NCBI RefSeq assembly: GCF_016405965.1
Contig: NZ_JAEFCD010000002.1
Location: 62,001-126,000, forward strand
Length of the DNA: 64,000 bases
Source: Alteromonas sp. IB21
Lineage (GTDB): Bacteria > Pseudomonadota > Gammaproteobacteria > Enterobacterales > Alteromonadaceae
Reading direction: 5' to 3'
Numbering within the stretch: the stretch's first letter is position 1; each line of letters starts with the position of its first letter. Of this stretch, positions 7,873-33,387 are shown one piece after another. The notes under the pieces were generated by a model. That model searched no databases. It was not told where the DNA came from and saw nothing but the letters and a program-made list of their open reading frames with translations. A program made the position numbers and the translations under genes.

Positions 7873-10548
7873 TTACGCGTAAAGTGGGTTAAGTTTTTCA
7901 GCGTTGATATCAAAACGCTTAATGGCTTCTGCTACCACTTTCTTCTCAACGTCGCCGCGCTGAGCCAATTCGTAAAGTGATGCAACCACAATGTATGACG
8001 CATTAACTTCAAAGTGAGTACGCAAGTTTTCGCGGCTATCACTTCGACCGAAACCGTCTGTACCTAGGCAGCGGTATTCAGTTTCAATGAACGCGCGTAC
8101 TTGGTCTGAGTAGTTCTTCACATAATCAGTGGCAGAAATCGCAGGACCTGCGTCTTTCGTAATGACCTGACCAATGTAAGGTACTTTTTGCTCGGCTTCA
8201 GGGTTTAGCATGTTCCAACGCGCAACGTCTTGACCTTCACGGGCTAGCTCGTTGAATGAAGTCACAGAGTAAACGTCAGAAGACACGTTGTAGTCTTCAC
8301 ACAGAATCTGCGCTGCTTTACGCACTTCGTTCAAGATAGTACCTGAGCCCATTAGCTGAACGTTAAGCGTAGACTTGTCGTTTTCAACGCGCTCTAGCTT
8401 GTAGATACCTTTAATGATTTGCTCGGCAACGTCATCACCTTCTGGCATTGCAGGGTGCTGATAGTTCTCGTTCATCAACGTTAGGTAATAGAAGATATTT
8501 TCGTTGTTACCGTACATACGACGCAGACCGTCTTGAATGATAACCGCCACTTCGTAACCATACGTTGGGTCGTAAGTAATACAGTTTGGAATTAGGTTCG
8601 CCTGAACATGTGAGTGGCCGTCTTGGTGCTGTAGACCTTCACCGTTAAGTGTGGTTCTACCTGCAGTTGCGCCTAATAGGAAACCACGCGCTTGGCTATC
8701 GCCAGCTGCCCATGCCAGGTCACCAACACGTTGGAAACCAAACATTGAGTAGTAGATGTAGAACGGAATAGTGGTCGCGTTACAGGTTGAGTAAGACGTA
8801 CCTGACGCAACCCACGATGCCATTGCACCTAACTCGTTAATACCTTCTTGTAGTACCTGACCTTTCTTATCTTCGCGATAGTAAGCCACTTGGTCTGCAT
8901 CTTGAGGTACGTATTTCTGACCTTCGTTGGCGTAAATGCCGACCTGACGGAACAAGCCTTCCATACCAAATGTACGGGCTTCATCAGGAATGATTGGCAC
9001 AATGCGTTTACCAATTTTCTTGTCTTTCAATAGCGCGTTAAGTACACGTACAAAGGTCATGGTTGATGACACTTGACGGTCGCCTGAACCTTTCAAGATT
9101 GCATCGAATGCACTTAGCTCAGGAACTTCCAACTGCTCTTCAGCTTGTTCGCGACGAGAAGGCAGGTAACCACCTAGTGCTTCACGACGTGCGCGAAGGT
9201 ACTTCATTTCTTCGCTATCTTCGTCGAACTTGAAGTAAGGTAAGTCAGCAATCTTGTCGTCTGCTACTGGAATATTGAAACGGTCGCGGAATACTTTGAT
9301 TGACTCTACGTCCATTTTCTTAACGTTGTGCGCTACGTTTTGTGCTTCACCTGATGCACCAAGACCGAAACCTTTTACTGTTTTAGCAAGAATTACTGTC
9401 GGACGACCTTTGGTATCAATCGCTTTTTGATAAGCTGCGAATACTTTCACTGGATCGTGACCACCACGGTTTAGACGCCAGATGTCATCATCAGACATGT
9501 TTGCTACAAGTGCCGCTGTTTCAGGGTACTTATTGAAGAAGTTTTCACGGGTGTACTTGCCGCCTTTGGCTTTACAGTTCTGGTATTCACCGTCTACCGT
9601 TTCACCCATAAGCTGGATTAGCTTGCCAGATTTATCACGAGCTAGTAGCTCATCCCAGTAACTACCCCAAATGACTTTCACGACTTCCCAGCCTGCGCCG
9701 CGGAACGTCCCTTCAAGTTCTTGGATAATTTTGCCGTTACCACGTACCGGGCCGTCTAGACGCTGAAGGTTACAGTTGATAACAAACGTTAGGTTGTCTA
9801 GGCCTTCGCGAGACGCAAGACCAATCGCTCCCAAGCTCTCTGGCTCATCACACTCACCATCACCCATGTAGCAGTATACGCGCTGACCTGAACAGTCTTT
9901 AATACCACGGTTGGTTAGGTACTTAAGGAAACGAGCAGTGTAGATTGCTTGAAGTGGACCTAAGCCCATAGATACCGTTGGGAACTGCCAGTAGTCTTTC
10001 ATCAAGTGAGGATGCGGGTAAGACGATAGACCATCGCCTGCACACTCTTGACGGAAGTTGTTTAACTGCTCTTCAGTTAAGTTGCCTTCTATGTAAGAAC
10101 GGGCATAAATACCAGGAGAAATATGGCCTTGAGCGAAAATAAAATCGCCGCCTTGGTTTTCGTTAGGCGCTTTAAAGAAATGGTTAAAACCCACATCGTA
10201 AAGCATAGCGGATGATGCAAAGCTTCCAATGTGGCCACCAAGCTCCAGGTCTTTTTTCGATGCACGCAATACGATCATCAATGCGTTCCAGCGAATAGCG
10301 GCACGGATGCGCGCTTCGATGGTCAAGTCACCAGGCATTTTTGGTTCTTGCGCTGCCGGGATAGTATTGATGTAGGCAGTAGTTGCGTCATACGGTAAAT
10401 GCGCTCCGCTGCGACGTGCTTTATCAATAAGTTTTTCGAGTAAATAGTGAGCGCGTTCTACGCCTTCCTCTTCTAAAACCGACTCAAGCGCATCAATCCA
10501 CTCTTTAGTTTCTTGAGGATCTACATCTTGGTGCATCATATCAGACAT
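7873..10548 (-). CDS. aceE: Pyruvate dehydrogenase E1 component (homodimeric type)
   Basis: Thiamine-diphosphate enzyme that decarboxylates pyruvate and acetylates the lipoyl groups of AceF. The 891-residue length equals the gammaproteobacterial homodimeric E1 (E. coli 887). Visible are the ThDP motif region GDGECDEPESLGAIGLASRE with its NC-containing end (FVINCNLQRLDGPVRGNGKI), the loop around HNVKKMD, and C-terminal blocks such as PFYIYYSMFGFQR and GLQHQDGHSH. The start at 10548 (MSDMMHQDVDPQETKEW) has AGGATGG just upstream. It is the first enzyme gene of the pdh operon, 206 bp downstream of pdhR. Confidence 0.98.
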   Translation of the reverse strand: MSDMMHQDVDPQETKEWIDALESVLEEEGVERAHYLLEKLIDKARRSGAHLPYDATTAYINTIPAAQEPKMPGDLTIEARIRAAIRWNALMIVLRASKKDLELGGHIGSFASSAMLYDVGFNHFFKAPNENQGGDFIFAQGHISPGIYARSYIEGNLTEEQLNNFRQECAGDGLSSYPHPHLMKDYWQFPTVSMGLGPLQAIYTARFLKYLTNRGIKDCSGQRVYCYMGDGECDEPESLGAIGLASREGLDNLTFVINCNLQRLDGPVRGNGKIIQELEGTFRGAGWEVVKVIWGSYWDELLARDKSGKLIQLMGETVDGEYQNCKAKGGKYTRENFFNKYPETAALVANMSDDDIWRLNRGGHDPVKVFAAYQKAIDTKGRPTVILAKTVKGFGLGASGEAQNVAHNVKKMDVESIKVFRDRFNIPVADDKIADLPYFKFDEDSEEMKYLRARREALGGYLPSRREQAEEQLEVPELSAFDAILKGSGDRQVSSTMTFVRVLNALLKDKKIGKRIVPIIPDEARTFGMEGLFRQVGIYANEGQKYVPQDADQVAYYREDKKGQVLQEGINELGAMASWVASGTSYSTCNATTIPFYIYYSMFGFQRVGDLAWAAGDSQARGFLLGATAGRTTLNGEGLQHQDGHSHVQANLIPNCITYDPTYGYEVAVIIQDGLRRMYGNNENIFYYLTLMNENYQHPAMPEGDDVAEQIIKGIYKLERVENDKSTLNVQLMGSGTILNEVRKAAQILCEDYNVSSDVYSVTSFNELAREGQDVARWNMLNPEAEQKVPYIGQVITKDAGPAISATDYVKNYSDQVRAFIETEYRCLGTDGFGRSDSRENLRTHFEVNASYIVVASLYELAQRGDVEKKVVAEAIKRFDINAEKLNPLYA

Positions 10549-10754: not shown

Positions 10755-11510
10755 CTAAATCTCTAATCGTCGCAATGCGCGCTGTACACGTGTATCGCGT
10801 TGATTAATGGTTAAAAGCGTTTTTTCAATAAACGCCAAATGCGTGTTACATGCCTGACGCGCAGCTTCAGGATCGCGAGAAGCAATAGCTTCTACAATTT
10901 CACGACGCTGCTTGGCAATGTCTTCCACTGCTTCAGGGTGCGCTGCCAACATGTCAAAATTTCGTTCAATATTGTCCACCAGCATACTTTGCATGGTGCT
11001 CATCACATGCAACAGCACCATGTTGTGCGATGCTCTTGCCATAATAATGTAAAACTGACCTAGTGCCTCTGCTTGAGCACGCTTACTTTCATGGGCTTTG
11101 GGCGTAGGCACGTCATTTAATGCTTGCTTTAATGCCTCATAGTCTTCTGGTTGACCACGAAGTGCCGCGTAATAAGCCGCCATTCCTTCAAGGGCGTGAC
11201 GAAATTCAAGCAAATCAAACTGGGTTTCAGGGCGCTGGCTGACTAAGTCCATTAGCGGGTCGGTCATCGCTGAATTGAGGTTGCGATTTACAAATGTACC
11301 GCCGCCTTGCTTACGCTCTACCAGTCCGCGTGCCTGTAGATTGCCAATGGCCTCTCTCAACGAGGGGCGAGAAACATCAAATTCAAGCGCTAGCTCTCTT
11401 TCTGGCGGCAGTTTTTGACCCGCCAACAGAGTACCGTCGAGTATCATTGACTCGAGTTGCTCGGTAATCACATCAGAGAGTTTTTTTCGCTGCTGCCGCA
11501 TGCGTTGCAC
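10755..11510 (-). CDS. pdhR: Pyruvate-responsive GntR/FadR-type repressor of the pyruvate dehydrogenase operon
   Basis: Transcriptional repressor released by pyruvate in the E. coli model. The N-terminal GntR winged helix (residues about 8-75) shows LPPERELALEFDVSRPSLRE and the wing ERKQGGGTFV. The C-terminal FCD all-helical ligand domain follows to residue about 235. The length, 251 aa, matches E. coli PdhR (254). The start is a GTG with AAGGA just upstream; an ATG three codons in is the alternative. The gene precedes aceE in the same direction and has a PdhR operator about 80 bp upstream, so autoregulation and control of the whole operon are likely. Confidence 0.95.
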   Translation of the reverse strand: MQRMRQQRKKLSDVITEQLESMILDGTLLAGQKLPPERELALEFDVSRPSLREAIGNLQARGLVERKQGGGTFVNRNLNSAMTDPLMDLVSQRPETQFDLLEFRHALEGMAAYYAALRGQPEDYEALKQALNDVPTPKAHESKRAQAEALGQFYIIMARASHNMVLLHVMSTMQSMLVDNIERNFDMLAAHPEAVEDIAKQRREIVEAIASRDPEAARQACNTHLAFIEKTLLTINQRDTRVQRALRRLEI

Positions 11511-11841
11511 GTATCCTTTAATTTAAACCAGCGCTGATATAACAGCAGTGAATGTAAACAATAATCAGAGATAATTTAATCACAGACACAATTGGTAATA
11601 CCATTTTACCTATCTAGTTTAAGGCAGATCGAATTCGAGGTAAATACTTCCAAGCATAGCAAAGCCATAGGGATTTGCTTCGTGTTAAGCTTTATTATTG
11701 AAATTGTTAAGAAAAGCGCAGCAATCGAAACTGGTCTGATGAGGCAGAAGGGGTGTAAAATAAGACGCGAAGGGTTTGATCTATCTACTAATTTATAAAC
11801 AGACCAAACGTTTAGTACTTATTAAATGTTAAAAATAGTGG
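11511..11841. other. Intergenic region between ampE and pdhR
   Basis: These 331 bp contain the pdhR promoter region and the PdhR operator described separately. A 68-codon plus-strand reading frame here has no family resemblance and I do not accept it as a gene. In E. coli aroP lies at this point; it is absent here. Confidence 0.6.
11590..11606. promoter_or_regulatory. PdhR operator upstream of pdhR
   Basis: AATTGGT-AAT-ACCATTT fits the known PdhR consensus AATTGGTnnnACCAATT with one mismatch. It lies about 80 bp upstream of the pdhR start codon, the expected place for autoregulation of pdhR-aceEF-lpd. Confidence 0.85.
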
Positions 11842-21214: not shown

Positions 21215-22504
21215 TTAAAAAAGCTCTATCTTAGGCTCGCGGGCTTCTTCAAACTCATTTTTTTCTTCTGTCGATGACTCATTAATATCGAAATGGATTT
21301 TGCGCTGGTCTTCCATCACATACTTTTCAAACATTTCTTTGGTGCTCAAGTTAAACGAGTCATCAAAATGTTCTCGGTTATTAATGTATGACGAGAACTG
21401 CCCGAACAAACTAACAATAGCATCTTGCTCTAGTTTCACATGTTCGGTGCGCTGACGAATGATATCTTGGAATTGAATTTTCGCGATAGCACCACTTACT
21501 TTAAATGCAACCTCGGTTGCACTTTGAGAAAAGCACGCCAGCATATTAGGGTTAAGGTCTTCTAGCACGCGATAATGAGACGTTATATTTTCCAGGGATT
21601 CAGAAAAACCGGTTAGTAATTCACACGTATCATTTGCCCTTGTTGAACTGAGCATTTTTTCGCCTTGAACGTGCGCCGCATCGAGGGCTGATTTGATACC
21701 GCTTTCAATTTTTTCTGCCGCCTCTGAAGACTGAGACGATAAAATTCGTACCTGTTCGGCTACTACGGCAAACCCGCGGCCATATTCGCCGGCACGCGCA
21801 GCTTCAATTGCCGCATTAAGCGCTAATAAGTTGGTTTGTGAGGCAATATTTTTAACCAGTTCGGTGAGTTCCTTGAGATTTTCAACCTCACGCATTACCC
21901 CTTGAATTGCCTCGCTATCTTCTATTTGTTGCTCGCGTTGCGTGTTTATCATCTCTTTTATATTAGACAAGCGCTGTGCGGCCAATTCAAATTCATCGGC
22001 ACTCTTTTCTTTACAATTAAGGGCATTTTTATGACCTATTTCGACGTTATCTATACTGTCTTGAATACTGCTTTCAATTTCGTATAACGCCTTCATTAGT
22101 TCCATCGAGGCATCTTCAGTTATCGCACTTATGCCGTCCATCTGGCCTTTTAATATGGCTACGTAATCGTTAACCTGAGAATGGGTTTCACTTAACTGCG
22201 ACGAGGTTTCCTGCAAATAATTCTCTTGGCTGCTTAGCTTGGCGGCAAACACGCGGTTTTGTCTGCTTTGATACCAAAGCATAAAGCTGATCATTCCTAA
22301 AATAGTGACAAAGACGCCCGCATGCACACCCATTATCTCTATAGGTATACTTAGCGACACCATGATCCCCACTAATGCCACGGTTAACAGCCCAACCCAA
22401 AGTAAAAGCGAGTCCTTCATGCTACTAGTCTTTTCCCTAAGCACTTTTATTTTTTCAGCGAGCATGGTTTCGTAATACTGCTTTGCTTTTTCAAGTACTT
22501 TCAT
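21215..22504 (-). CDS. Membrane-anchored methyl-accepting chemotaxis-like protein with CheZ-like FQDxxxQ motif
   Basis: Last gene of the chemosensory operon. The 429-residue protein has two adjacent N-terminal membrane helices (about 33-52 and 60-78) with almost no periplasmic loop, so no external sensor domain. A cytoplasmic coiled coil follows, with the receptor tip [32 protein letters not shown] at about 222-253. The C-terminal arm is short and carries [14 protein letters not shown] (343-356): Asp347 and Gln351 repeat the spacing of the catalytic Asp143/Gln147 in E. coli CheZ (FQDLTGQ). No CheR-tethering pentapeptide is seen at the end. In gene order it corresponds to the terminal receptor of V. 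cholerae cluster I. It may sense membrane or redox state, or act as signal terminator; both are inference. Confidence 0.88.
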
Positions 22505-22513
22505 TTTTTTACC

Positions 22514-22882
22514 TTATGCAGTTGGCACCAACTGCTTTACTACACCTAACAATTGCTCTGGCTCAACGGGTTTGACGAGCCATCCTGTAGCGCCTGCCGC
22601 TTTCGCTTCTTGTCGACGACTTTGCTGCGATTCCGTTGTTAACATCAACATGGGGGTAAATCTAAATTTGGATTGCTGCTTTAATGTTTTTATTAACTCG
22701 ATGCCATTCATACCTGGCATGTTTAAATCCGTAATAATCAACTTGGGCGATATTGATTCAAGTGCTGTCATAGCCGCTTCAGCACTTTCTGATTTTGTAA
22801 CAGTATACCCTGCTCGTTTTAGCAGCATTTCCATACTCATTAGCATGGTTGCTGAATCATCTACTAAGTGTATTGCGCTCAT
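22514..22882 (-). CDS. CheY-like single-domain response regulator (second of the operon)
   Basis: The 122-residue receiver domain has the acidic pair Asp8/Asp9 (HLVDDSA), the phospho-acceptor Asp52 (ITDLNMPGMNG), the switch Thr in LMLTTES and the conserved Lys in WLVKPVEP. There is no output domain. It lies 9 bp before the terminal receptor gene and 17 bp after the ParA-like gene. As one of two CheY proteins in this operon it may be the output or a phosphate sink. Confidence 0.93.
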   Translation of the reverse strand: MSAIHLVDDSATMLMSMEMLLKRAGYTVTKSESAEAAMTALESISPKLIITDLNMPGMNGIELIKTLKQQSKFRFTPMLMLTTESQQSRRQEAKAAGATGWLVKPVEPEQLLGVVKQLVPTA

Positions 22883-22899: not shown

Positions 22900-23634
22900 C
22901 TAGCCGATTAATTGTTTACATAATTCAGTATAGTCGTGTGCGCCACGACTGTTAGGCGCATAGGCAAAAACCGGTTTGTTTTGTGCAAATGCCTCGGCTA
23001 ATTTGATGCTCTTTCTTATAGGAATCAGTACCTTGCTGCGCCCGTACCGCTCGTACCAGACACTTAATTCCTGACGATGAAGCTTTAGATTTTGTTCGAC
23101 CATGACGGGCAAAATAGTCAGCTTGGTCGCTCTGAATTTTTTTTCCGCCATAGCGTTTCTACAGGCCGTTAATAATTTCTGCACACCGTCACTGGCAAGC
23201 GGCAAAGGTGTGGCGGGAATAATAATATCGGTAGCGGCTGATAGCGCGGCCATCAGTTGCGGGCTTAGCGTTGGTGGCGTATCTATAAGTACAATGTCAA
23301 AAAGCGTTGTCACGCAATCTGAGTCACACCAAGTGCGCAATGTATCTAACGTGATGCTATCGTTCGTGTTGGCCTTGTTCGTATCCACATTCGTGGCGTA
23401 GATATTTTCTGTACACTTCACAATTGACGTGAAGAAATGGCTAATTGGTAATTCGGCAATATCGTTTTGTGGTGCACATCCAAGTGCTTTTAAGCCATGC
23501 ATCACGTGGCCTTGATTATCAAGGTCTATCACCATTACTCGCTTGCCTGCCTGTGCAAACCCATAGGCAAGGTTTACGACAGTTGTCGTTTTGGCCGTAC
23601 CTCCTTTGCGATTAGCTACCGTGATTACTTTCAT
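22900..23634 (-). CDS. ParA/MinD-family ATPase of the chemosensory operon
   Basis: Deviant-Walker ATPase of the ParA type, predicted to position the chemosensory array or segregate it at division, as PpfA does for cytoplasmic clusters in Rhodobacter sphaeroides and ParC for polar arrays in Vibrio. The 244-residue product starts MKVITVANRKGGTAKTTTVV (signature lysine and P-loop at about 9-17), then VIDLDNQGH (switch I) and VLIDTPPTL (Walker B). I chose the ATG at 23634 since it starts right at the domain and overlaps the preceding stop (ATGA); a longer version has an unrelated 15-residue lead. It is not linked to a parB or plasmid genes. Confidence 0.93.
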   Translation of the reverse strand: MKVITVANRKGGTAKTTTVVNLAYGFAQAGKRVMVIDLDNQGHVMHGLKALGCAPQNDIAELPISHFFTSIVKCTENIYATNVDTNKANTNDSITLDTLRTWCDSDCVTTLFDIVLIDTPPTLSPQLMAALSAATDIIIPATPLPLASDGVQKLLTACRNAMAEKKFRATKLTILPVMVEQNLKLHRQELSVWYERYGRSKVLIPIRKSIKLAEAFAQNKPVFAYAPNSRGAHDYTELCKQLIG

Positions 23635-23885
23635 TCGCACCACACGTTGCTTTGGTTGTTCATCATCTTCGTTAACCAAAACAGCCTTTCAGATTCTGGC
23701 CACACGCTGACTTTTGGCTTATTAGCGAGCAACACCTGGTACACCGCTGTGTGTGCACTGGTTAAGACCTTTAAGTTAACTTGGCGAGAGGCCTCTTCAT
23801 TTAGCCAGGTAAACAGGCTTTCCGCTTCTTCAATTTCGCAGTGTCCGGTCATCACCGCCACTTTCTTTTTGAACGCTATAGGCAT
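23631..23885 (-). CDS. Small STAS-like protein between cheA and the ParA-like gene
   Basis: An 84-residue protein with no membrane segment. The start overlaps the cheA stop by 10 bases and its stop overlaps the ParA-like start (ATGA), so translation coupling on both sides supports it as a real gene. The pattern of a strand (KKVAVMTGHCEI), a helix (EEAESLFTWLNEEA), a strand and TSAHTAVYQVLLANKP resembles a minimal STAS / anti-sigma antagonist fold; the assignment is by pattern only. It could act as a connector between CheA and the ParA-like protein. Easy to miss in automatic annotation because of size and overlap. Confidence 0.78.
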   Translation of the reverse strand: MPIAFKKKVAVMTGHCEIEEAESLFTWLNEEASRQVNLKVLTSAHTAVYQVLLANKPKVSVWPESERLFWLTKMMNNQSNVWCE

Positions 23886-26590
23886 TTGGCTAACACCTCT
23901 TGTACATTGATGATCAACAGCACACGCCCGTCGCCAAGCAGCGCTGTTCCTGAAAACTGCGCGTATCCCGCAAGCACTCCTTCGAGGGGTTTTTGAATGA
24001 CATCGATGCCTTCATGAAACTTATCGATGATTAACCCAAACTCTCCCTGCGGTGCCGAAACAACCAGAATTGAGTGTTCTTCTTTTTCCTCGGCCTCGTC
24101 GAAACCCAGTGCATCACGCAAATTACACAGTGGAATAAGCTTTTCTCGGATAACAAGAACATGTTCGTTGCGGATACGTTGAATATCAGAAGTAGGGACT
24201 TTAACGGTCTCAACCACCGCATCCATCCCCACGCCAAACATTTGGTCGCTCACTTCAAACATCATCACGCGATTAACCGACATGGTTTGAGGTAACAGCA
24301 GCTTAAAGGTCGTACCCACGCCCACTTCGCTGTGCATTTCGATAGTGCCGCCCGCTTGACTGACCATGGTTTTAACCGCATCCATGCCCACGCCACGACC
24401 GGAAAGATCCGACACTTGTTCACTGGTCGAAAAACCCGCGGCAAAAACAAGCTGTAGCGCTTCGTTATCGTCTAAGCTCTCAAGTTGTGCTTCACTAATT
24501 ACCCCTTTTTGAAAGGCCAGCAGCTTAATTTTAGTGGGGTCTATACCTTTTCCATCATCGCGAATTTCAATAATTACGCTGTCATCAAGGGGCGTGGCAA
24601 TAAGGTCAATACGGCCCATTTCTGACTTGCCAGCCGCAAGCCGTTCTGCTGGCGATTCAATACCGTGATCAATGCTGTTTCTCAATAAATGAATGAGCGG
24701 CTCTGAAAGTGATTCAATTAAGTTTTTATCAAACTCAGTGTCTTCACCCTGCAGAAAAAGCTCAATTTTTTTATCGAGCTTTCTAGCTAAGTCCCTCACT
24801 AAACGAGGGTAGCGTTGGAATACATGAGAAACGGGTACCATACGTATTTGCAATACCGCGCTTTGAAGTGATTCAGTGAGGCGATTAACAATAGAAAAAT
24901 GGGCTTTAATTTGCTTGCTAAGCTTTCTACTTCCCCCCTCTTCCTCGGCTTGTTTAGCAAGATAGGGTAAAGAGTTTTTGGCCACCGTTAGCTCGCCCAC
25001 AATGTCCATTAAGTAGTCGATCTTGGCTTGATCGACCTTTAGCATCTTAACCGCCTGACGCTCGGCTTTTACGGGCTGTGCACTTTCGTTGGTACTGTTT
25101 AAGGCATTACTCTCTGTGTTATTTCCTGCTTTCTCTGGTGTATCCGTCGTCTGCGTAGCCACCGCTGACATATCTTCTGCGCTTTGCTGCTTTAGTGTTT
25201 CATCAGCTTGCTCATTGATTGTTTCGTCATCTAACGCATTGCAAATAGCCAACGCCAAGGTACCTTCATCGCTAAAGGTTTCACCTAAGATGTTCCCTAC
25301 AAGCCCTGATATAGAGGGAAACATAAACTCCGACTTATAGTTATCTGAATTCAAAAGCGTAAGTTGCTGAGTAAGAATTGCCTTTTCATGAGGAGCTAGA
25401 ATTTTTTCGGGGCGCGCTGAAATGTCTGATGGCTTGGCATTAGATTCAAGGGGAGCGTCTTCATCTGCGTTTCCCAATACACTGACATTTGCAGTATCAT
25501 CAGTACCGACAACCGCGTCATTGCTTTGGCCTATGCTTTCGTTGGCGCTTTCTGCTGTTTCCGCAACACTGCTTGACTCAGGCCCACGAAGAAAATCTAG
25601 CTCACTTGCTGCTGATAAAAATTGTAAAGTAGCGCGCTTGGCATCATCACAGTGCGCATCACCAATATCTTGAGAAGCAAGTAGTAGCCCTGCACTGGCG
25701 TTAACCTGCTCAAGGTTATTGTCTGCTAGCGCATCTGATAATGTCTGGTCAGCGATTTGGGCAACGTTATCTATAATTTTGCTAACGCAACTTGCTCTTA
25801 ACGCCTGGCTAGAAAATACAGTAACGGTATATTGTCCTTCGTAATACGCCATGTGCTGCTTGATTGCATCTTCATCTGCACAACCGAGCGCCTCAATACT
25901 GGTCACGCAGTTATAAATATCGGCATCATGGTTAAGTTCGGGCATGTCAATATTGAACGCTTTGAGCCCCGGTAAGGCTAGCAAAACATTAATAGGGTCC
26001 TCGCCGCGAAAGAAACAACCTTCATCGGGTGTATATCTCACTAGATAACAGTATGGTCCCTCGACCTGACACAAGAGTTTAATATCTGCGTTTTCGCTAA
26101 AGCTTGCTAAAAGGTCTATTTGCTCGTCAGTTAGGAATTTATCATCTAGTGATACTGTGCTAGTCGGTGAAGCTTCATTTTTAATGCCTGCGCCATCTGA
26201 TGCGTCAGGATCGATAAAGTACCGGAGCTTCGCACCTAGGTTAGTCGATATGGGTTGCCACTGTTCAAGGTCTTGTGAGCCCACTTCTAACTCGTCAAAC
26301 CAAATCGAAATTTGGTCTAAAGCCTCTAGCAGCAATTCGCCGATATCGTCGCTGAAAGCTACTTCGTTAGCTCTTACACTATCGAGTAAGTCTTCTGCAG
26401 CATGCGCTAACCGAGTTAAGGGTTTTATATCAAATAAGTCAGATGACCCCTTTATGGTGTGCAAATCGCGAAATATCTTATCTACACGTTCTGACGATGA
26501 TCCCGACGATTGAATTTCTAGTAATTCTTGGCTCGCCGACTCTAGATTTTCTCGCGACTCTCCGATGAATACGTCAAGTAACTCACTCAT
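23876..26590 (-). CDS. cheA: Chemotaxis histidine kinase CheA (F9/cluster-I type)
   Basis: Cytoplasmic kinase that phosphorylates the CheY and CheB proteins. The 904-residue chain has an Hpt domain with the phospho-accepting His44 (LHTIKGSS), a P2-like region (YLVRYTPDEGCFFRGEDP, around residues 180-260), a long acidic, Ser/Thr/Asn-rich linker of about 200 residues to about 510, the dimerisation domain (about 516-580), the HATPase domain with N box LRNSIDHGIE (about 635-645), G1 DDGKGID (about 678-684) and G2 GRGVGMD (about 731-737), and a C-terminal CheW-like domain. I chose the ATG at 26590: GGAGG is five bases upstream and it overlaps the cheY stop. A TTG 15 bases upstream is less likely. 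Confidence 0.96.
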   Translation of the reverse strand: MSELLDVFIGESRENLESASQELLEIQSSGSSSERVDKIFRDLHTIKGSSDLFDIKPLTRLAHAAEDLLDSVRANEVAFSDDIGELLLEALDQISIWFDELEVGSQDLEQWQPISTNLGAKLRYFIDPDASDGAGIKNEASPTSTVSLDDKFLTDEQIDLLASFSENADIKLLCQVEGPYCYLVRYTPDEGCFFRGEDPINVLLALPGLKAFNIDMPELNHDADIYNCVTSIEALGCADEDAIKQHMAYYEGQYTVTVFSSQALRASCVSKIIDNVAQIADQTLSDALADNNLEQVNASAGLLLASQDIGDAHCDDAKRATLQFLSAASELDFLRGPESSSVAETAESANESIGQSNDAVVGTDDTANVSVLGNADEDAPLESNAKPSDISARPEKILAPHEKAILTQQLTLLNSDNYKSEFMFPSISGLVGNILGETFSDEGTLALAICNALDDETINEQADETLKQQSAEDMSAVATQTTDTPEKAGNNTESNALNSTNESAQPVKAERQAVKMLKVDQAKIDYLMDIVGELTVAKNSLPYLAKQAEEEGGSRKLSKQIKAHFSIVNRLTESLQSAVLQIRMVPVSHVFQRYPRLVRDLARKLDKKIELFLQGEDTEFDKNLIESLSEPLIHLLRNSIDHGIESPAERLAAGKSEMGRIDLIATPLDDSVIIEIRDDGKGIDPTKIKLLAFQKGVISEAQLESLDDNEALQLVFAAGFSTSEQVSDLSGRGVGMDAVKTMVSQAGGTIEMHSEVGVGTTFKLLLPQTMSVNRVMMFEVSDQMFGVGMDAVVETVKVPTSDIQRIRNEHVLVIREKLIPLCNLRDALGFDEAEEKEEHSILVVSAPQGEFGLIIDKFHEGIDVIQKPLEGVLAGYAQFSGTALLGDGRVLLIINVQEVLAKCL

Positions 26591-26960
26591 TGGCGCCTCC
26601 TCCAATCACTGCACTTACAACCGATTTAAGCATGTCTGCATCAACAGGCTTGGTCATGTAGTAATTTGCGCCGCATTGGTACGCACGTTCGGCATCTTGA
26701 TTAGCCGACTCGGTGCTTATCATGATTACGGGGACCGCGCGCAACGCCTCGTTGCGACGAATTTCTTTGCACAGTCGGTAGCCATCCATTTTTGGCATAT
26801 TCACATCAACTAAAAACAAATCAACCTGTGTACCAATGGCTTTTTCAAGCGCTTCTACTCCGTTTTCCGCTTCTTCAATAATCCTATCCGGCGTGGACAC
26901 TAGCTTTTTGTGGAACATCCTGACCGTAGTGGCATCATCAACAATCATTACTGTTTTCAT
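26583..26960 (-). CDS. cheY: CheY-like response regulator (first of the operon)
   Basis: A 125-residue single receiver domain: Asp8/Asp9 in VMIVDDATTV, phospho-acceptor Asp52 in LVDVNMPKMDG, the Thr/Ser switch in MISTES and Lys in YMTKPVD. The chosen ATG at 26960 has GGAGAG upstream and starts at the domain; an upstream in-frame ATG adds 12 residues that overlap cheR. It sits directly between cheR (1-bp gap) and cheA (8-bp overlap), the place of the CheY in V. cholerae cluster I. Confidence 0.94.
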   Translation of the reverse strand: MKTVMIVDDATTVRMFHKKLVSTPDRIIEEAENGVEALEKAIGTQVDLFLVDVNMPKMDGYRLCKEIRRNEALRAVPVIMISTESANQDAERAYQCGANYYMTKPVDADMLKSVVSAVIGGGANE

Positions 26961-26961
26961 C

Positions 26962-27816
26962 TTATGCCTCTCCTGCAAGTGGCTTCTGATAGGCAATCAC
27001 ATCGCCAAACTTGCGTACCTTAAACATAGAAGAAATGCGACTCATCGACTCACTATGCCCCAAAAAGATATAGCCGCCTGGCTTCATGGCGTCGTAAAGA
27101 ACATGCGCCGCCTTTTTGCGTGATTCATCGTCGAAGTAAATGAGTAGATTGCGACAAAAAATCAGGTCAAAGTGCCGAAACTGTTTCATATTGGTGCCCG
27201 ACAATATATTGGCGAGGGTAAATGACACCGACTCGCGAATATCTTCGCTTAGCTGGTATTGCCCATTTGCCTCTTTGAAGTATTTTTTTACCAACGGCAA
27301 CGGGATATTTTGCACGGAGCGTTTTGAATAGAGCCCTTTTTTCGCTGATGCTAATACATTACTGTCGATATCGGAAGAAATCAGTTCCACATCTCTGTGA
27401 GCTAAACCTTTCCAATACTCAATAAGGTAGATAGCAATTGAATATGGTTCTTCACCCGTGCTTGAAGGTACAGACCAAATTCTCAAGTCCTCCCCGGGCG
27501 GACGGTAACTATCGAGCTCGTCCATAATATCTCGAGTCATGGCTTCGAACTGATATTCTTCTCGAAAGAAATAGGTTTCATTAACCGTCATCGAATTCAC
27601 TAAGTTTTGGAACTCTTCGCCAGAAGCCTGAAATCGCATATAGGTAAAGTAGCCTTTGAAGCTCGAATGGCCGGTGGCTTTCATTCGCTCATGAAGACGC
27701 TTATCAACGAAGTAGCGCTTCGAGTCTTCAAAGTGAATTCCCGTTTTCCGGTAAAACATAGAGCGGAACCGTTCGAAGTCGGCAGCATCTATTTTATCTA
27801 ATGCTGCGCTACTCAT
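26962..27816 (-). CDS. cheR: Chemoreceptor glutamate methyltransferase CheR
   Basis: SAM-dependent methyltransferase for receptor adaptation. The 284-residue product has the N-terminal helical CheR domain (DFERFRSMFYRKTGIHF and SMTVNETYFFRE, the latter near residues 75-86) and the Rossmann domain with IWSVPSSTGEEPYSIAI (a variant of the usual SAGCSTGEEPYS, with PSS in place of AGC), HFDLIFCRNLLIYFD and GYIFLGHSES. It overlaps the upstream HEAT-like gene by 8 bp. As neither receptor shows a clear CheR-binding pentapeptide, methylation would occur without tethering. Confidence 0.96.
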   Translation of the reverse strand: MSSAALDKIDAADFERFRSMFYRKTGIHFEDSKRYFVDKRLHERMKATGHSSFKGYFTYMRFQASGEEFQNLVNSMTVNETYFFREEYQFEAMTRDIMDELDSYRPPGEDLRIWSVPSSTGEEPYSIAIYLIEYWKGLAHRDVELISSDIDSNVLASAKKGLYSKRSVQNIPLPLVKKYFKEANGQYQLSEDIRESVSFTLANILSGTNMKQFRHFDLIFCRNLLIYFDDESRKKAAHVLYDAMKPGGYIFLGHSESMSRISSMFKVRKFGDVIAYQKPLAGEA

Positions 27817-28450
27817 CAGCGCCCCTTACCTGATTTCGTATCAGTGATATGACAAATTGGATATAGCTGTGATTTGGGAAGCGGCTTTCTACTGTTTGCA
27901 AAATATCGAGTGTCGAGGTATCGGCAATCTCTGCGAGTTTATCGAGCGCTGTGCCGACAACATTTTCATTATCATCTGTTAATGCAAACTGGTGCAGCCA
28001 ATTTAAGGCTTCAATATGTGCTACGGCGCCAATGATATCTACACAGAAAATGCGCGTGTCTGGGTCGTTGTCTTTCATAAGAAGGTTAACGTTGGCCGCA
28101 AACACGTCTGGGTTTTGCTGCATAAGTTCTATGGCGCCGTTTCGAAGCTGCACGTGTTCGCTTTTAAGCATGGTGAGCACTTGTGATGCGTGACTGTCTG
28201 ACATATCGTGCTCAAGTGCACTAAATAGCGCTTCGATAACGGTAGGGTCGTCTTCAAGAGGCAGTCGATCAATAAACGCATCATGTGCGTCTTGCTGACC
28301 ACTTAGATCTCTTATCGCCCATCGACGCACGTCTCTGTCGTTTGAGCTAAGGTCGTTAACAAGTTGTTCTGTGGTTCGCGGGTGGTGGCGTTTCTCATCA
28401 AACTCATCGCCATGGTTTGCAATAGGCTCCGCTTTCTTTTTTAAACCCAT
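27809..28450 (-). CDS. HEAT-repeat-like helical protein of the chemosensory operon
   Basis: A 213-residue soluble protein made of paired helices with recurring D-N-P-D-T/V-x-x-A motifs: SSNDRDVRRWAIRDL (about 36-50), LEDDPTVIEALFSAL, LKSEHVQLRNGAIELM, MKDNDPDTRIFCVDIIG and TDDNENVVGTALDKLAEI. This spacing is typical of HEAT/PBS-lyase-type repeats that act as protein-binding scaffolds. I chose the ATG at 28450 because AGGAGA precedes it; an upstream start overlapping cheB is less likely. It lies between cheB and cheR. HEAT proteins also occur in the Che7 system of Myxococcus, so an adaptor role within the array is plausible. Confidence 0.85.
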   Translation of the reverse strand: MGLKKKAEPIANHGDEFDEKRHHPRTTEQLVNDLSSNDRDVRRWAIRDLSGQQDAHDAFIDRLPLEDDPTVIEALFSALEHDMSDSHASQVLTMLKSEHVQLRNGAIELMQQNPDVFAANVNLLMKDNDPDTRIFCVDIIGAVAHIEALNWLHQFALTDDNENVVGTALDKLAEIADTSTLDILQTVESRFPNHSYIQFVISLIRNQVRGADE

Positions 28451-28464
28451 TTTGACTTCTCCTG

Positions 28465-29502
28465 TTAACGACAAAGCACATTGAGTTTCGATGCAACTTT
28501 TGGACTGTCTAGGACAAAACTGGCACAGCCTGCTTCGATAAGCTCTTTGGGCATACCAAATACGACCGAGGTAGCTTCGCTCTCCGCGATAGTTGTCGCT
28601 CCTTCTTTAAATGCTTTACTCATTGCCGCAACGCCATCACACCCCATACCCGTTAGTTGAACGCATAGCATAGACAGCGGTTTGTAGCAGGTAAGCGCGC
28701 TGTCTACCATCCGATCTACGCTGGGGTGCCATAGAAAGCTGGGGCTGGACGGCACAGGCCGCGCGAAAACATCGCTTCCTACTTTCGAAAAAGAGAGATC
28801 TGCATCGCCTTTCGCTAAGTAGACGGTGCCTGGTTTTATTGGCATCTTACTGTCGACTTCAACAACATTAAGCGAACTTAAACCATCTAACCGCTTCGCC
28901 AGTGCACAGGTGAAAGACGCTGGCATATGCTGAGAAATGACAACGGGTACCGGGAACGTCGGGCTTAGATTTGATACTAGGTGTTCCAGCTTCTTAGGCC
29001 CCCCCGTTGAAACGCCTACTAGCACCACTTCAAAGGGTGCACTCTTGTTACTTCGAATCACTTTTTGATTAACGACAGGCGGTGTTTTTATGATGGGACG
29101 CTGGGGTTTACCGGTTTTCGCTAACGCATGGATTTTATTAATAAGCGGGACTTCTAAATCTGAGATATCCCGTGAAACAGTGCCCCCAGTCTTTAGAACA
29201 AAGTCACTGGCACCAAGCGCCAGCGCCTCTAGCGTAATGGTTGCGCCTTTTTGTGTTAACGAAGACACCATGATGATGGGACATGAATAAAGCTTTTTCA
29301 GCATGGCTAAGCATGTCATGCCGTCCATTACCGGCATATTGATATCTAACGTTATGCAGTCGGGCTCAAACTCTATCGCTTTTGATAACGCTTCTTCGCC
29401 GTTACGCGCTATCCGAACGTTAAAGCCCTCTTTCTCAAAAAGCTCCGTAAACAACTTACGCATTAACGCTGAGTCATCGACGATAAGTACTTTCACTGTC
29501 AT
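28465..29502 (-). CDS. cheB: Chemotaxis response regulator / protein-glutamate methylesterase CheB
   Basis: Removes methyl groups from receptors after phosphorylation by CheA. The receiver domain (1-120) has Asp9/Asp10 and phospho-acceptor Asp53 (TLDINMPVMDG); the methylesterase domain (about 155-345) has the triad Ser165 (VGVSTGGPKKL), His192 (VISQHMPASF) and Asp289 (TGMGCDGVAAM). The 345-residue length is typical. The chosen ATG at 29502 has GAGG about eight bases upstream; an upstream TTG is less likely. It follows the triple-CheW gene by 19 bp. Confidence 0.97.
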   Translation of the reverse strand: MTVKVLIVDDSALMRKLFTELFEKEGFNVRIARNGEEALSKAIEFEPDCITLDINMPVMDGMTCLAMLKKLYSCPIIMVSSLTQKGATITLEALALGASDFVLKTGGTVSRDISDLEVPLINKIHALAKTGKPQRPIIKTPPVVNQKVIRSNKSAPFEVVLVGVSTGGPKKLEHLVSNLSPTFPVPVVISQHMPASFTCALAKRLDGLSSLNVVEVDSKMPIKPGTVYLAKGDADLSFSKVGSDVFARPVPSSPSFLWHPSVDRMVDSALTCYKPLSMLCVQLTGMGCDGVAAMSKAFKEGATTIAESEATSVVFGMPKELIEAGCASFVLDSPKVASKLNVLCR

Positions 29503-29521
29503 ACATAACCTCAAACGTTAG

Positions 29522-31069
29522 TTAGCATTGCTCTTGAGCCGTTGCAACGGCGTTGTCGTTAAGCAACACATTGGGTTCGATAATTTGGATGATGCGCTTT
29601 TCGTCGTTGAGTTTTATCAATCGATTTAGAAATTCAGACTGCATATCAGAGAGTGATGGGGCATTTTCAATGGTCTGTCTCACCACTGTTTTAACTTCGG
29701 CTACGCCATCTACAATGAACCCCGTACGCTGCTTATCTTTGGTAAGAACAACAATACGCTGGCGCTCTGAGGTTTCGCTACTGGGCATTCCCAGGCGACT
29801 ACGCAAATCAATAACTGGCAGAACTGTGCCCCGAAGATTTACGATACCTTTTAGGTAGTCTGGCGTACTCGGCACACTTTCCAGCTTCTCAGGTACTCGC
29901 GTGATTTCTTGGGTGTCGTCGATGCTCACGCCATACTCTTGCCCGTTAATCCAGAAAATCACGTATTGCTCGCAATCATCTTCGTCAATCACCACATCAT
30001 TACCTTCACTCATTTGCGACTCCTGCTTGATATCGTCTTCAATACTGCTAAGTACACTCATCAACGCGCGCCCGTATACGTTAGAAAGGTTAATAATGGA
30101 CACCAATCGCTTGCCACCATCGCTACGGTATACGGCTTCTAGAAGCCCCGATTCCGCACCGTCGTTACATACTGATGGCACGCTTTCTAACTCTGATTCT
30201 GATATAGACACCACGTTACTGACCTTGGCTACGACAAAGCCTATGCTGCCAAACTCACTGTTTTGTGTAACTACAATGCGCGAGGCTTCATTGATCTCGG
30301 TGGACATCATGCCGATGGCGTTCGATAAGTCGACAATAGGAATGATACGGCCGCGTAGGTTAACCAAACCGAGGACAGCTGGTGCACTGTCTGGTAGCTG
30401 GGATATATCTGCGGGCACCCGAACAATCTCTTCTACGTCTTGGAGGTGAAAGGCAAATTCTTGGTCTTCTAGAGAGAAACACACCAACTGTTGAAGACTA
30501 TCATTTTCGTTTGCGTCACCCACTTCATCGCTGTCAATGCGTCTCATCCCCGATAATTGCATGGCATTGCCGTCTTGCTTTGTTACAGCTTGCGCTCTGG
30601 CAAGTGAAGAAACATCAAGGATTTGCTCTACAGGATGGTCGCTTTGCTTAATTATTCCGAGCATATACTCATAGGCGATAGATTCCGTCATTGATGCTTT
30701 TTCAATAACGACGTCGTTTGTCGCACTGTATACCCGAAGCACTCTGTCGACTAAAAAGCCTATGCTGCCAAGCTCAGATTCCACTACAATAACGCGAGTA
30801 ACATCGCTCGCCTCTGCATGGGTACCTAACAAAATGGCGCTTAAGTCATAAACGGGAAGTACATTTCCGCGCAGGTTAGCTAAACCAATCATCTGCGGTG
30901 GCCCAAGCGGCACCGAGACCATGGTGGGTACGCGAATGATTTCGCCCACCGATAGCATAGGAAAGGTAAAGCGCTCTTGGTTGACCAAGAAAGAAACGAA
31001 CTGTTGTTCGCCGTCAGTCGCTTGATCCGTGTTGCTTTCAGTTTCATCGAATGTATTGCCGTTGCTCAT
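29522..31069 (-). CDS. cheW: Triple-domain CheW scaffold protein
   Basis: Couples receptors to CheA in the array. A normal CheW is about 160 residues with one domain; this 515-residue protein has three in tandem (about 22-158, 192-332 and 366-503), each with its own NLRG motif (65-68, 237-240, 411-414) followed by LPVYDL, IPIVDL and LPVIDL. Acidic, variable linkers join them. There is no membrane segment. One chain could therefore bridge several CheA or receptor tips. It lies between the double-tip receptor gene (35-bp gap) and cheB, as the multi-domain CheW in V. cholerae cluster I does. Confidence 0.93.
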   Translation of the reverse strand: MSNGNTFDETESNTDQATDGEQQFVSFLVNQERFTFPMLSVGEIIRVPTMVSVPLGPPQMIGLANLRGNVLPVYDLSAILLGTHAEASDVTRVIVVESELGSIGFLVDRVLRVYSATNDVVIEKASMTESIAYEYMLGIIKQSDHPVEQILDVSSLARAQAVTKQDGNAMQLSGMRRIDSDEVGDANENDSLQQLVCFSLEDQEFAFHLQDVEEIVRVPADISQLPDSAPAVLGLVNLRGRIIPIVDLSNAIGMMSTEINEASRIVVTQNSEFGSIGFVVAKVSNVVSISESELESVPSVCNDGAESGLLEAVYRSDGGKRLVSIINLSNVYGRALMSVLSSIEDDIKQESQMSEGNDVVIDEDDCEQYVIFWINGQEYGVSIDDTQEITRVPEKLESVPSTPDYLKGIVNLRGTVLPVIDLRSRLGMPSSETSERQRIVVLTKDKQRTGFIVDGVAEVKTVVRQTIENAPSLSDMQSEFLNRLIKLNDEKRIIQIIEPNVLLNDNAVATAQEQC

Positions 31070-31104: not shown

Positions 31105-33012
31105 TTAGCCGTTTTGCATTTCGTCTGCCACCGAAGCAATTTCTTCAATAGACTTGGCCAACATCTCCATACCTTTACTTTGCTGCTCAGCGGCACTCAG
31201 CGCCTGCTGGCAGTTACTGCTTGCCTCCTCATTGGCCGTCGCGATTTGCTCTAAACCACGCTGAGCTTGTGTCACTCCCGCAGCTATTTCTTCACCCCGA
31301 ACTTTCATTGCTTTGTTGTATTCAACAACATCATTAATATCTGTAGAAATTTGTTCTACATCTCGGGTGGTTTGCTTGGCTTTCATCACTTCTCTATATG
31401 CGCTTTCAGCGACGTTCGTGAGGTCGGTCTTAACGCTAACTGTTTGATCCTGAATAGCTTTGATAAGATCTTTTATTTGCTCTACGTTTTCGGCAGCTTC
31501 ATCAGCTAAGCTTTGAATATCAGCCGATACCACAGCAAAGCCTTTACCATACTCACCGGCCCTTGCTGCTTCTACCGCGCCGTTTACCGCGAGCATGCTG
31601 GTTTTAACCGAAACAGTTGTAATAGTGTCAATAACCTTATCGATCTGACGGGTCATAACTTCCATTTCGCTTATAGCGCTTACATTTACCTTGCTAGTTT
31701 CAAGCGCCGTATTGATACCGCCCACCATTTCTTCAATTGCCACGCGGCTATCTTTAAGTAATGCTGCGATAGAACTTCCTTTCTCTAGCGCTAAATCACT
31801 GCTCGCTGCTGCTTTTTCAACGCCCTCTCGTAACAGATCAATATTACCCACAGCTTGATCTACAGAACTTGCTGCTTGCTGCGCCCCGTTATTAACTTGG
31901 GTAAGTGCAGTCATTATCTCGCTCGATGAACGGTTAATTTCTTCCAAACTTGCCGACAATTCCTCTGCTGATGATGCAACTTCTTCAGCGCTTTTATTAA
32001 TGTCTGTACTATTTTTGAGCTCTTCAGTGATTATTTCTAATGATTGCGCAGCCTGCTCAGCCTGTGACAAGGCTGCACTTTGCTCCGACACATTTGACGA
32101 GACTTCTTGAGCTGCAGTGGATTGTTCGTCGGCAGCGCATGATATAATTTCTGAGCCAGCTTGGATTTCTTTGGCAGCAGCATCCATTGAATTAACTAGC
32201 GCCTGTAATTCTTCAGCGCCATCAGCAATACTTTGCATATCTGCTTTAATAATGGTGAGTTGTTCGGTAACGGCCTCACCCTTTGTCACTTCTTCTAGCG
32301 CAGCCTCAGAAGAAGATTTAACCGCATCAGAAACACGATTTGACTGCTCTTGAATTAGCTCTATTTGCTTCGCAATATCCGCTGCGCTTTTATCTGAAAC
32401 CTCGGCAAGCGCTCGGACAGTGTCAGCGACGACTGCAAACCCTTTACCGTGCTTGCCAGCTCGACCAGCCTCTATTGCAGCATTAAGCGCCAGCAAATTG
32501 GTTTGATCTGCTATTCGAGTCACCTGCTTGACAGCTTCACCAATGTTTGAAGCTTGCTGTTCTAGCTCGCTCATCATCACGACCGAACGAGATTGATGCT
32601 CAGACGCGGTTTTTACGCTGGTCATCATAGTGCCTAAATCAGCTACCACTCGCTCTAAGAATATTTGTAATTCATTGGTTTTATTCATAGTGGAGCCAGC
32701 AAGCTCGAGTTGTGCTACCAGCCCCCCGGATATTTGTGTCACTGCCGCCAGGCTTTCTTGGCTTGCACTGCTTGACTCCTCTGCACCTGCTGCAATCTCG
32801 TTTACAGCGGTAGATAACTGGTCGGTAGCGCTTGATGATTGGTTTATACCGCTAGCTAGCTCAGCGGTTGCCGACGCAATACGCTCCGCTGCTTGCTGCT
32901 GCCTTGCTAGTGTTCTCGCTTTGCGGCGCTCCTCTTCCGCTTCTTTCCTCATTTTTGCGTCTACGCGAACGGTAGGTGCGACTGCTTGATCAGATGATTT
33001 TTTGAGCGCCAT
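31105..33012 (-). CDS. dosM: Cytoplasmic double-signalling-domain chemoreceptor (DosM-like)
   Basis: First gene of the operon. The 635-residue protein has no membrane segment and no ligand-binding domain; nearly all of it is Ala/Ser/Glu/Gln-rich coiled coil. It contains two complete receptor tips: [20 protein letters not shown] (from Ala168) and [20 protein letters not shown] (from Ser468), exactly 300 residues apart, each followed by GKGFAVV. This is the architecture of V. cholerae DosM, which stabilises membrane-free two-layered arrays. I chose the ATG at 33012 because GAGG stands at the right distance; an upstream ATG adds five residues. The second tip deviates more from the canonical sequence than the first. 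Confidence 0.92.
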
Positions 33013-33387
33013 AGTTAACCTCGACATTTAAATGGCTGTTAATGCACGTATTAAATATCGTTTAAAAAATGGTTTATTTAAGTATAAATTCATATACTTT
33101 TATATAACGATAAACACTATTCCCTCGCTTTCACACGTTTCAGCCGCAGAAAGACGTAAATGTCGTAAAAAACACAATTTTACGTACATTGTATTAAAAC
33201 AAGAGTTTATGTATGTACTTTAGCCAACGATGAAAAGCGCAACTTTGTCAACGTACAAAAGTCTAAGGGGGCAAACTGTGGAGTTAAATTTTTTGAAGAA
33301 AAAACAGTTGGAAACGATTCAATTATACTTAGGTATAAGAAAAAAGCGGCTATTAGCCGCTTTGATTTTTCATTATGTTAAGCGCTG
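33013..33387. other. Region between mutT and the chemosensory operon
   Basis: This 375-bp AT-rich gap should hold the promoter of the whole chemosensory operon, reading left. I could not identify a convincing sigma-70, sigma-28 or sigma-54 promoter by eye: a TTGACA near 33252-33257 on the minus strand lacks a suitably spaced -10. The mutT terminator at 33341-33363 is the only clear element. Short open frames here show no family resemblance. Confidence 0.5.
33341..33363 (-). terminator. Intrinsic terminator of the secA-mutT transcript
   Basis: Stem AAAGCGGCT / AGCCGCTTT with a 3-base loop; on the minus strand it ends in a T-run. It closes the secA-mutT transcript before the chemosensory operon. 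Confidence 0.9.

Follow-up and report, generated by a model that had tools for sequence, protein, structure and literature searches.

A CheZ-like DxxxQ motif and a conserved C-terminal tail in chemoreceptors suggest a possible receptor-borne site for CheY-P

The last chemoreceptor of a chemotaxis operon in Alteromonas sp. IB21, a protein of 429 amino acids, carries directly C-terminal of its MCPsignal domain (residues 191-343) the octapeptide QFQDIIRQ, and ends in a tail, EPKIELF, that together with this motif marks a broad class of receptors, a class overlooked by the original prediction for this DNA. We tentatively propose that the receptor carries a CheZ-like output site that would dephosphorylate the CheY encoded beside it. 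As far as sequences can tell, a receptor-borne CheY-P site is the most likely interpretation, with the site probably acting as a phosphatase, and the 'fused phosphatase' that the original prediction considered is the best reading of the motif, its context and a weak profile similarity. The way in which signals are ended in F7 and F9 systems without a cheZ of their own lacks an explanation so far, and a phosphatase site inside a receptor would join input and signal termination in one protein, as well as providing a candidate relative of the DxxxQ phosphatases.

The motif receptor and its operon

The window, by which we mean the whole analysed stretch of 64,000 nucleotides, contains the features placed in Table 1. 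The ten-residue string with D347 and Q351 is present as originally described in the minus-strand open reading frame 22504-21215, with the right FQD context and DxxxQ spacing; it occupies 21449-21478 on the minus strand, and the interval first given for it, 21448-21475, covers QFQDIIRQR, correct as to the site and a few bases off in its ends. The protein unites the MCPsignal domain expected of an MCP chemoreceptor with the Phe-Gln that precedes the Asp of DxxxQ in the CheZ family (FQDIIRQ). FQDxxxQ occurs a single time across the six-frame translation of the window, compared with a chance expectation, calculated from the composition of the open reading frames, of about 0.0015 per 429 amino acids and 0.07 over the window's 45 large open frames. 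The shortness of FQDxxxQ and the coiled-coil-like character of its helix would favour a chance resemblance, but conservation over many genera and linkage to the tail (see below) contradict this explanation and make it scarcely credible.

Table 1. Receptor features and operon genes in the window
Feature	Position	Strand	Basis or remark
Chemoreceptor (MCP), 429 aa	21215..22504	-	Pfam MCPsignal at residues 191-343, PF00015 E 5.8e-27
QFQDIIRQ, residues 344-351, CheZ-like DxxxQ site	21452..21475	-	D347 codon 21464-21466, Q351 codon 21452-21454
Conserved linker motif, 12 residues, 395-406	21287..21322	-	Cf. the YTMxxER-like stretch of relatives and of stand-alone proteins
Tail at the C-terminus, EPKIELF (residues 423-429), putatively a docking peptide	21218..21238	-	Ortholog alignment and tails of relatives
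N-terminal helix stretch, 14 residues, 120-133	22106..22147	-	Conserved among orthologs; height near DxxxQ site inferred from hairpin-tip distance
CheY-like receiver (122 aa, with D52), presumably the substrate or a partner	22514..22882	-	Pfam; D8/D9, D52, T82/T83, K104 present
ParA-family ATPase	22900..23679	-	Pfam
CheA	23876..26605	-	Pfam
Second CheY-like receiver	26583..26996	-	Pfam
CheR	26962..27816	-	Pfam
HEAT-repeat protein	27809..28474	-	Pfam
CheB	28465..29514	-	Pfam
CheW, three CheW domains	29522..31069	-	Pfam
Operon's first chemoreceptor (640 aa), lacking motif and tail	31105..33027	-	Pfam MCP

The operon is ordered MCP, triple CheW, CheB, HEAT protein, CheR, CheY, CheA, ParA, CheY and motif-bearing MCP, the gene of the latter beginning 9 bases past the stop codon of cheY, which bears out the earlier statement that the operon encodes two CheY-like receivers, one of them adjoining the motif receptor gene. 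From this gene content, we take the operon to be of the F9 type. Its gene content resembles that of Vibrio cholerae cluster I, called F9 in PMC7534058 and PMC11940527 (cited, like all papers here, from their accessible parts). The original prediction had further stated that cheZ, cheC, cheX and cheD were lacking, which is correct for the operon (none of the nine genes scanned in it has a Pfam match to any of the four families, and the tenth, 31105-33027, is an MCP) but not for the genome, which encodes a full-length CheZ elsewhere (E 4.7e-76), beside cheY and cheA as the locus was read, together with one CheD and two CheC-type matches outside the operon. Because the genome carries cheZ elsewhere, the argument drawn from the missing cheZ is weakened; the genomic cheZ may instead serve the flagellar system, by analogy with the F6 CheZ reported for the flagellar system in the accessible text of PMC7184735.

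Two further observations concern the receptors of this genome. The operon's first receptor has three MCPsignal stretches in one chain and gave two separate matches in the home-genome MCP search, and may hold two signalling hairpins. A homology search gave 21 distinct MCPs in the home genome; two of them carry QFxDxxxQ beyond the tip, and this same pair has the IELF end. The second of these (L018) reads LQFGDINGQ and lies on a contig (C20) with a CheD (L138), whose C-terminus, SGDVDLFEDLK, has the common tail motif four residues short of its end.

Conservation of motif and tail

Q344, F345, Q346, D347 and Q351 are invariant in all 10 aligned ortholog rows, window protein included (55-91% identity to it), along with the tail EPKIxLF and most positions of YVMEDQRxIHFD, giving a conserved C-terminus without an xWxxF pentapeptide. 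The conservation of D347 and Q351, on which the original prediction depended, thus extends over these rows and over nearly all distant relatives seen. Close orthologs are narrowly and patchily distributed: at E 1e-30 they occur in 3 of 247 genomes from the order, one of the three being the home genome, and at that threshold they are absent from four of the seven genomes of the same genus. A metagenome-assembled contig titled Rhodospirillaceae (L006, PAXN01000055.1) also codes for an Alteromonas-type receptor (83% identity) and is probably misbinned. No relative was found in viral contigs; in the plasmid collection the window protein had no match, and a McpA-like query matched three Vibrio records.

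Wider searches recovered the same combination in distant receptors. A profile of the C-terminal part matched 22 of 369 genomes of the class, with a QF[QEYF]DxxxQ-type frame at all 22 loci, one of which (L051) is a stand-alone protein with FYDAMTQ and no receptor; 18 of the 20 other genomes with such a match have CheZ. The broader MCP-only profile, run on 398 genomes from the phylum, had matches in 132, part of these matches being CheZ or stand-alone proteins, and the best distant loci examined from this search (L077-L103, n=27, L077 repeating an earlier gene) all have both motif and tail. By Pfam, 43 of 45 distant motif frames are MCPs; the exceptions, L099 and L103, are proteins of about 330 amino acids with the motif and a MDEGD[IV]DLF tail and no Pfam domain at E 0.01. 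All 45 end in [IVL][EDQT][LF]F, and 40 of them in [IV][ED]LF. Our filter kept 42 of the 45 frames (L047, an MCP by Pfam, failed along with L099 and L103); L099 is counted among the 29 rows of alignment A6, L122 and L123 were left out since the CheZ profile had found them, and L048 was left out as its frame is truncated. A 46-row alignment (44 rows with MCPsignal) shows no variation at Q344, D347, Q351 and the C-terminal F429; of these, Q, D and Q belonged to the regular expression used in selection, as for many rows, and F429 was not selected. The residues before D and before Q vary; D and Q are constant save in L243, which has kept D and lost Q. A methylation site at Q351 was set aside, every motif row having Gln rather than a mixture of Glu and Gln, in rows that had been selected for Gln.

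Twenty weaker matches of the phylum profile comprised 14 MCP-like frames (13 with the pair, and L243 without Q), three CheZs, a stand-alone protein (L242), a motif frame (L245) and an unresolved locus (L244), and nine further weak matches comprised four CheZs and five small non-CheZ motif proteins, including L258 with motif and tail. A selection by tail only, blind to the motif, gave 14 MCP frames from 62 distinct genomes, 11 of which have QFxDxxxQ. Homology to an F7-type receptor led to a Vibrio receptor with LQFTDIIVQ that ends in GEVELF; in its F7 cluster, CheD ends in DDVELF and the other receptor in EWEEF.

The tail is shared well beyond receptors. In the 62 distinct genomes of our survey (a 5-genome and a 58-genome set), [DE][IV][DE][LF]F ends 39 frames of at least 150 amino acids, which regular expressions sorted into 13 CheD-like proteins, 11 MCPs with the motif, eight FxDxxxQ proteins without a visible receptor tip, three GGDEF proteins, three MCPs without the motif and one spurious frame. 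Raw matches to the tail pattern showed no clear enrichment over a reversed-pattern control in the 58 genomes, so that only the sorting of open frames is informative, and 27 of 60 loci of the 58-genome set had no tail-ending frame. At 25 CheD loci from genomes with motif receptors, [IV][EDT][LF]F forms the very C-terminus in 12 and lies no more than 13 residues from it in 18. The GGDEF diguanylate cyclases (L149, L152 and L153) end in NDIELF, DDIELF and SEIELF, as receptors and CheD do; because all three stem from three genomes of the 5-genome set, with none in the 58-genome set, the link between cyclases and tail is limited. The genome of L152 has an F7-type cluster, and L152 itself is encoded close to a cheY-like gene; c-di-GMP is a possible output of some F7 systems. 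At locus L070 the receptor (9283-10509) ends in EEITFF and the CheD (10905-11534) in ADITFF, the two tails varying together, a paired change that suggests a common partner of receptor and CheD. A sliding-clamp motif was ruled out for the tail, which has no conserved Gln.

That receptors, CheD, stand-alone proteins and a small number of cyclases have this tail in common points to a single partner, for which CheY-P would be the most economical choice and CheB or CheR possible ones. If CheY-P is bound, catalysis need not follow, and the receptor might instead be a CheY-P sensor, a sink or a local platform for docking through which output returns to the array. The combination of DxxxQ with a tail common to CheD and some diguanylate cyclases would suit this as pointing to one partner, and Bacillus CheD answers to CheY-P via CheC; but Asp and Gln are both invariant at CheZ spacing, beyond the needs of a docking surface, and we consider binding without catalysis unlikely.

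Adaptation could also be served by helix motif and tail, which would then dock CheR, CheB or CheD; the tail would be a form of xWxxF in which I or V replaces W, and D and Q would be structural. The register of the tail fits the pentapeptide, three of the tail-bearing MCPs from the tail-only selection have no DxxxQ motif, and in the accessible part of PMC11940527 Mlp44 (VCA1088), placed in System III by unpublished methylation tests, has an E-W/V-E-x-F type tail proposed as a CheR3 site. The Pseudomonas aeruginosa McpA variant with Val at pentapeptide position 2, however, bound none of four CheRs (PMC7184735, citing Garcia-Fontana 2014), and the tail ends diguanylate cyclases and stand-alone proteins as well, which leaves adaptation a fairly unlikely explanation next to the CheZ-like output site that we favour.

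Resemblance to CheZ and to stand-alone proteins

Profile comparison by hhalign placed FQD on FQD against both gamma-CheZ (P 6.8e-5) and alpha-CheZ (P 6.9e-6). The gamma-CheZ score of 32.7 exceeded those of all 150 heptad-block shuffles (best 28.2) and of 150 shuffles in which the motif was kept (best 31.4), and one of 200 heptad-block shuffles reached the alpha-CheZ score. With the motif masked, P values were 0.068 (one side), 0.039 (both sides) and 0.017 (alpha-CheZ), on the same diagonal or part of it; because masking weakens the hhalign signal, the likeness rests mainly on the motif itself. The MCP-only profile fetched seven alphaproteobacterial CheZs, confirmed by Pfam above cut-off, among the 29 weaker matches examined, and conversely the Pfam CheZ model (PF04344) matched the receptors L122 (4.9e-5), L123 (2.3e-4) and L055 (8.1e-4), all below cut-off. 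The window protein did not match PF04344 at E up to 10, the CheZ model matched one of 46 full-length rows at E<=0.01 and, at E<=1, three of 29 segments, so that it did not surpass DUF7217 (4 of 29), and the CheZ search gave a weak sub-cut-off signal in the control Bacillus subtilis too. In a PDB search by sequence, Escherichia coli CheZ (1kmi) came only at E 1.6, below designed and viral coiled coils. We regard the similarity of the receptor helix to CheZ as real at the level of sequence, and a common origin of the two as plausible.

According to the accessible text of PMC7750401, the Asp and Gln of DXXXQ are the residues with which CheZ acts on CheY-P, and AXXFQ is the upstream motif; at position -5 the window protein has K342, versus Ala in 17 of 17 CheZ rows. 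Its tail, EPKIELF, is not the LGF-type CheY-binding C-terminal helix of CheZ.

Receptors, stand-alone proteins and CheZ resemble one another in the hydrophobic pattern that flanks the motif. In 56 helices of the MCP set, six stand-alone proteins and 17 CheZs, respectively, the hydrophobic face points to 338, 321 and 317 degrees before the motif and to 173, 212 and 184 degrees after it. Calculated as a sequence-based moment, D and Q lie opposite the hydrophobic face C-terminal of the motif, as in CheZ, and would lie near that face if the N-terminal register continued. Predicted structures, with a mean pLDDT of 56.8 for a CheY-receptor fusion and 51.4 for the cytoplasmic part alone, were too poor for docking, exposure or a fold search. 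Between the two sides of the motif, the hydrophobic face turns by about 165 degrees. This turn, and the conservation of an N-terminal helix stretch at what is probably much the same height, could also mark a non-catalytic element for packing or a register shift at the membrane-proximal end of the bundle, but CheZ, with its catalytic pair, shows a similar rotation, and the motif occurs in stand-alone proteins of 162-225 amino acids, which makes a packing element very unlikely.

We saw eight stand-alone proteins in which QF[YF]DxxxQ goes together with the tail at, or close to, the C-terminus (L166, L192, L194, L212, L218, L222, L242 and the L051 frame); the first seven of these, and L073 (4564-5190), have about 160-225 amino acids, a YTMxxER-like stretch and a DIELF-type tail. 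L166, close to a cheV-like gene, had no convincing Pfam or NCBIfam match, and L073 had no Pfam match. Five other small proteins (L253, L254, L255, L257, with 182 amino acids, and L258) combine [ML]QF[EQG]DxxxQ with an ELF or DLF tail, and L253, L255, L257 and L258 matched no curated family above cut-off in the libraries scanned. Stand-alone and receptor profiles aligned in the same register with P 2.2e-7 (7.7e-5 with the motif masked on both sides), at a score reached by none of 150 heptad-block shuffles; the comparison of the stand-alone proteins with gamma-CheZ was not significant and out of register (P 0.065, score reached by 12 of 150 shuffles). By these profiles, the stand-alone proteins are related to the receptors, and they are candidate CheY-P phosphatases.

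Proposed function and relation to known systems

In CheZ, the Gln places the attacking water and the Asp pairs with a conserved Lys. We propose that D347 and Q351, on the C-terminal helix past the signalling domain, would form a DxxxQ pair of the CheZ kind, that the EPKIELF tail would dock CheY-P, or another shared partner, near this site, and that the receptor would dephosphorylate the neighbouring CheY, so that the signal would be terminated within the array by an F9-type system that lacks a cheZ of its own; McpA-like receptors would do likewise in F7 systems. Motif and tail, their conservation and joint occurrence, and the gene context are observed; binding of CheY-P, catalysis, an exposed site and the partner of the tail are proposed. 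A more far-reaching and, in our judgement, doubtful generalization is that the last receptors of F9 clusters and the McpA-like F7 receptors are embedded CheY-P phosphatases that share the DxxxQ helix with the stand-alone proteins and CheZ, and that their tail, [IV][ED]LF, serves as a peptide for docking CheY-P and is present on CheD and some diguanylate cyclases too. Were this true, it would account for F9 and F7 clusters without cheZ and for the purpose of the conserved McpA C-terminus, and would indicate c-di-GMP as an output of some F7 systems.

The F7 stages described in the accessible parts of PMC7184735 speak for the proposed output site. There, stages 1-2 of F7 have cheZ only in F6 and an mcpA-like receptor present, stage 3 has lost the mcpA-like gene and kept the F6 cheY/cheZ pair, and the C-terminus of McpA-like receptors is highly conserved; in 2020 it was described as important, with an unclear role. 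In the accessible parts of the literature searched, which largely excluded subscription papers, a DxxxQ site was nowhere mentioned for McpA-like receptors; the site in receptors is therefore provisionally new, and the conserved McpA C-terminus was already known.

Compared with CheZ (PF04344), the receptors have a similar F-Q-D-x-x-x-Q helix with a similar hydrophobic pattern around it, a tail after a linker and weak profile matches in both directions, whereas their site is joined to an MCP signalling domain and their tail is IELF rather than the DDLLSSLGF or DDIDALFG of CheZ. CheT of Sinorhizobium and Agrobacterium, which we set beside them by description, likewise has a DXXXQ motif outside CheZ but is no receptor; it reportedly binds CheR and promotes the dephosphorylation of one CheY out of two (PMC12654446, accessible part). 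The McpA-like F7 receptors (CttP/PA0180 and VCA1088, also compared by description) lie beside a che cluster and have a highly conserved C-terminus with V for the pentapeptide W (PMC7184735), and the F7-type relatives examined here also carry QFxDxxxQ; they differ in belonging to F7 clusters, whereas the window's cluster is of the F9 type, with ParA, HEAT and triple CheW and no CheD among the scanned genes. VC1394 of V. cholerae cluster I, whose correspondence to the window receptor is inferred from cluster type, resembles it in its 24H signalling domain, its TM region and its place as a gene of an F9 cluster (PMC7534058).
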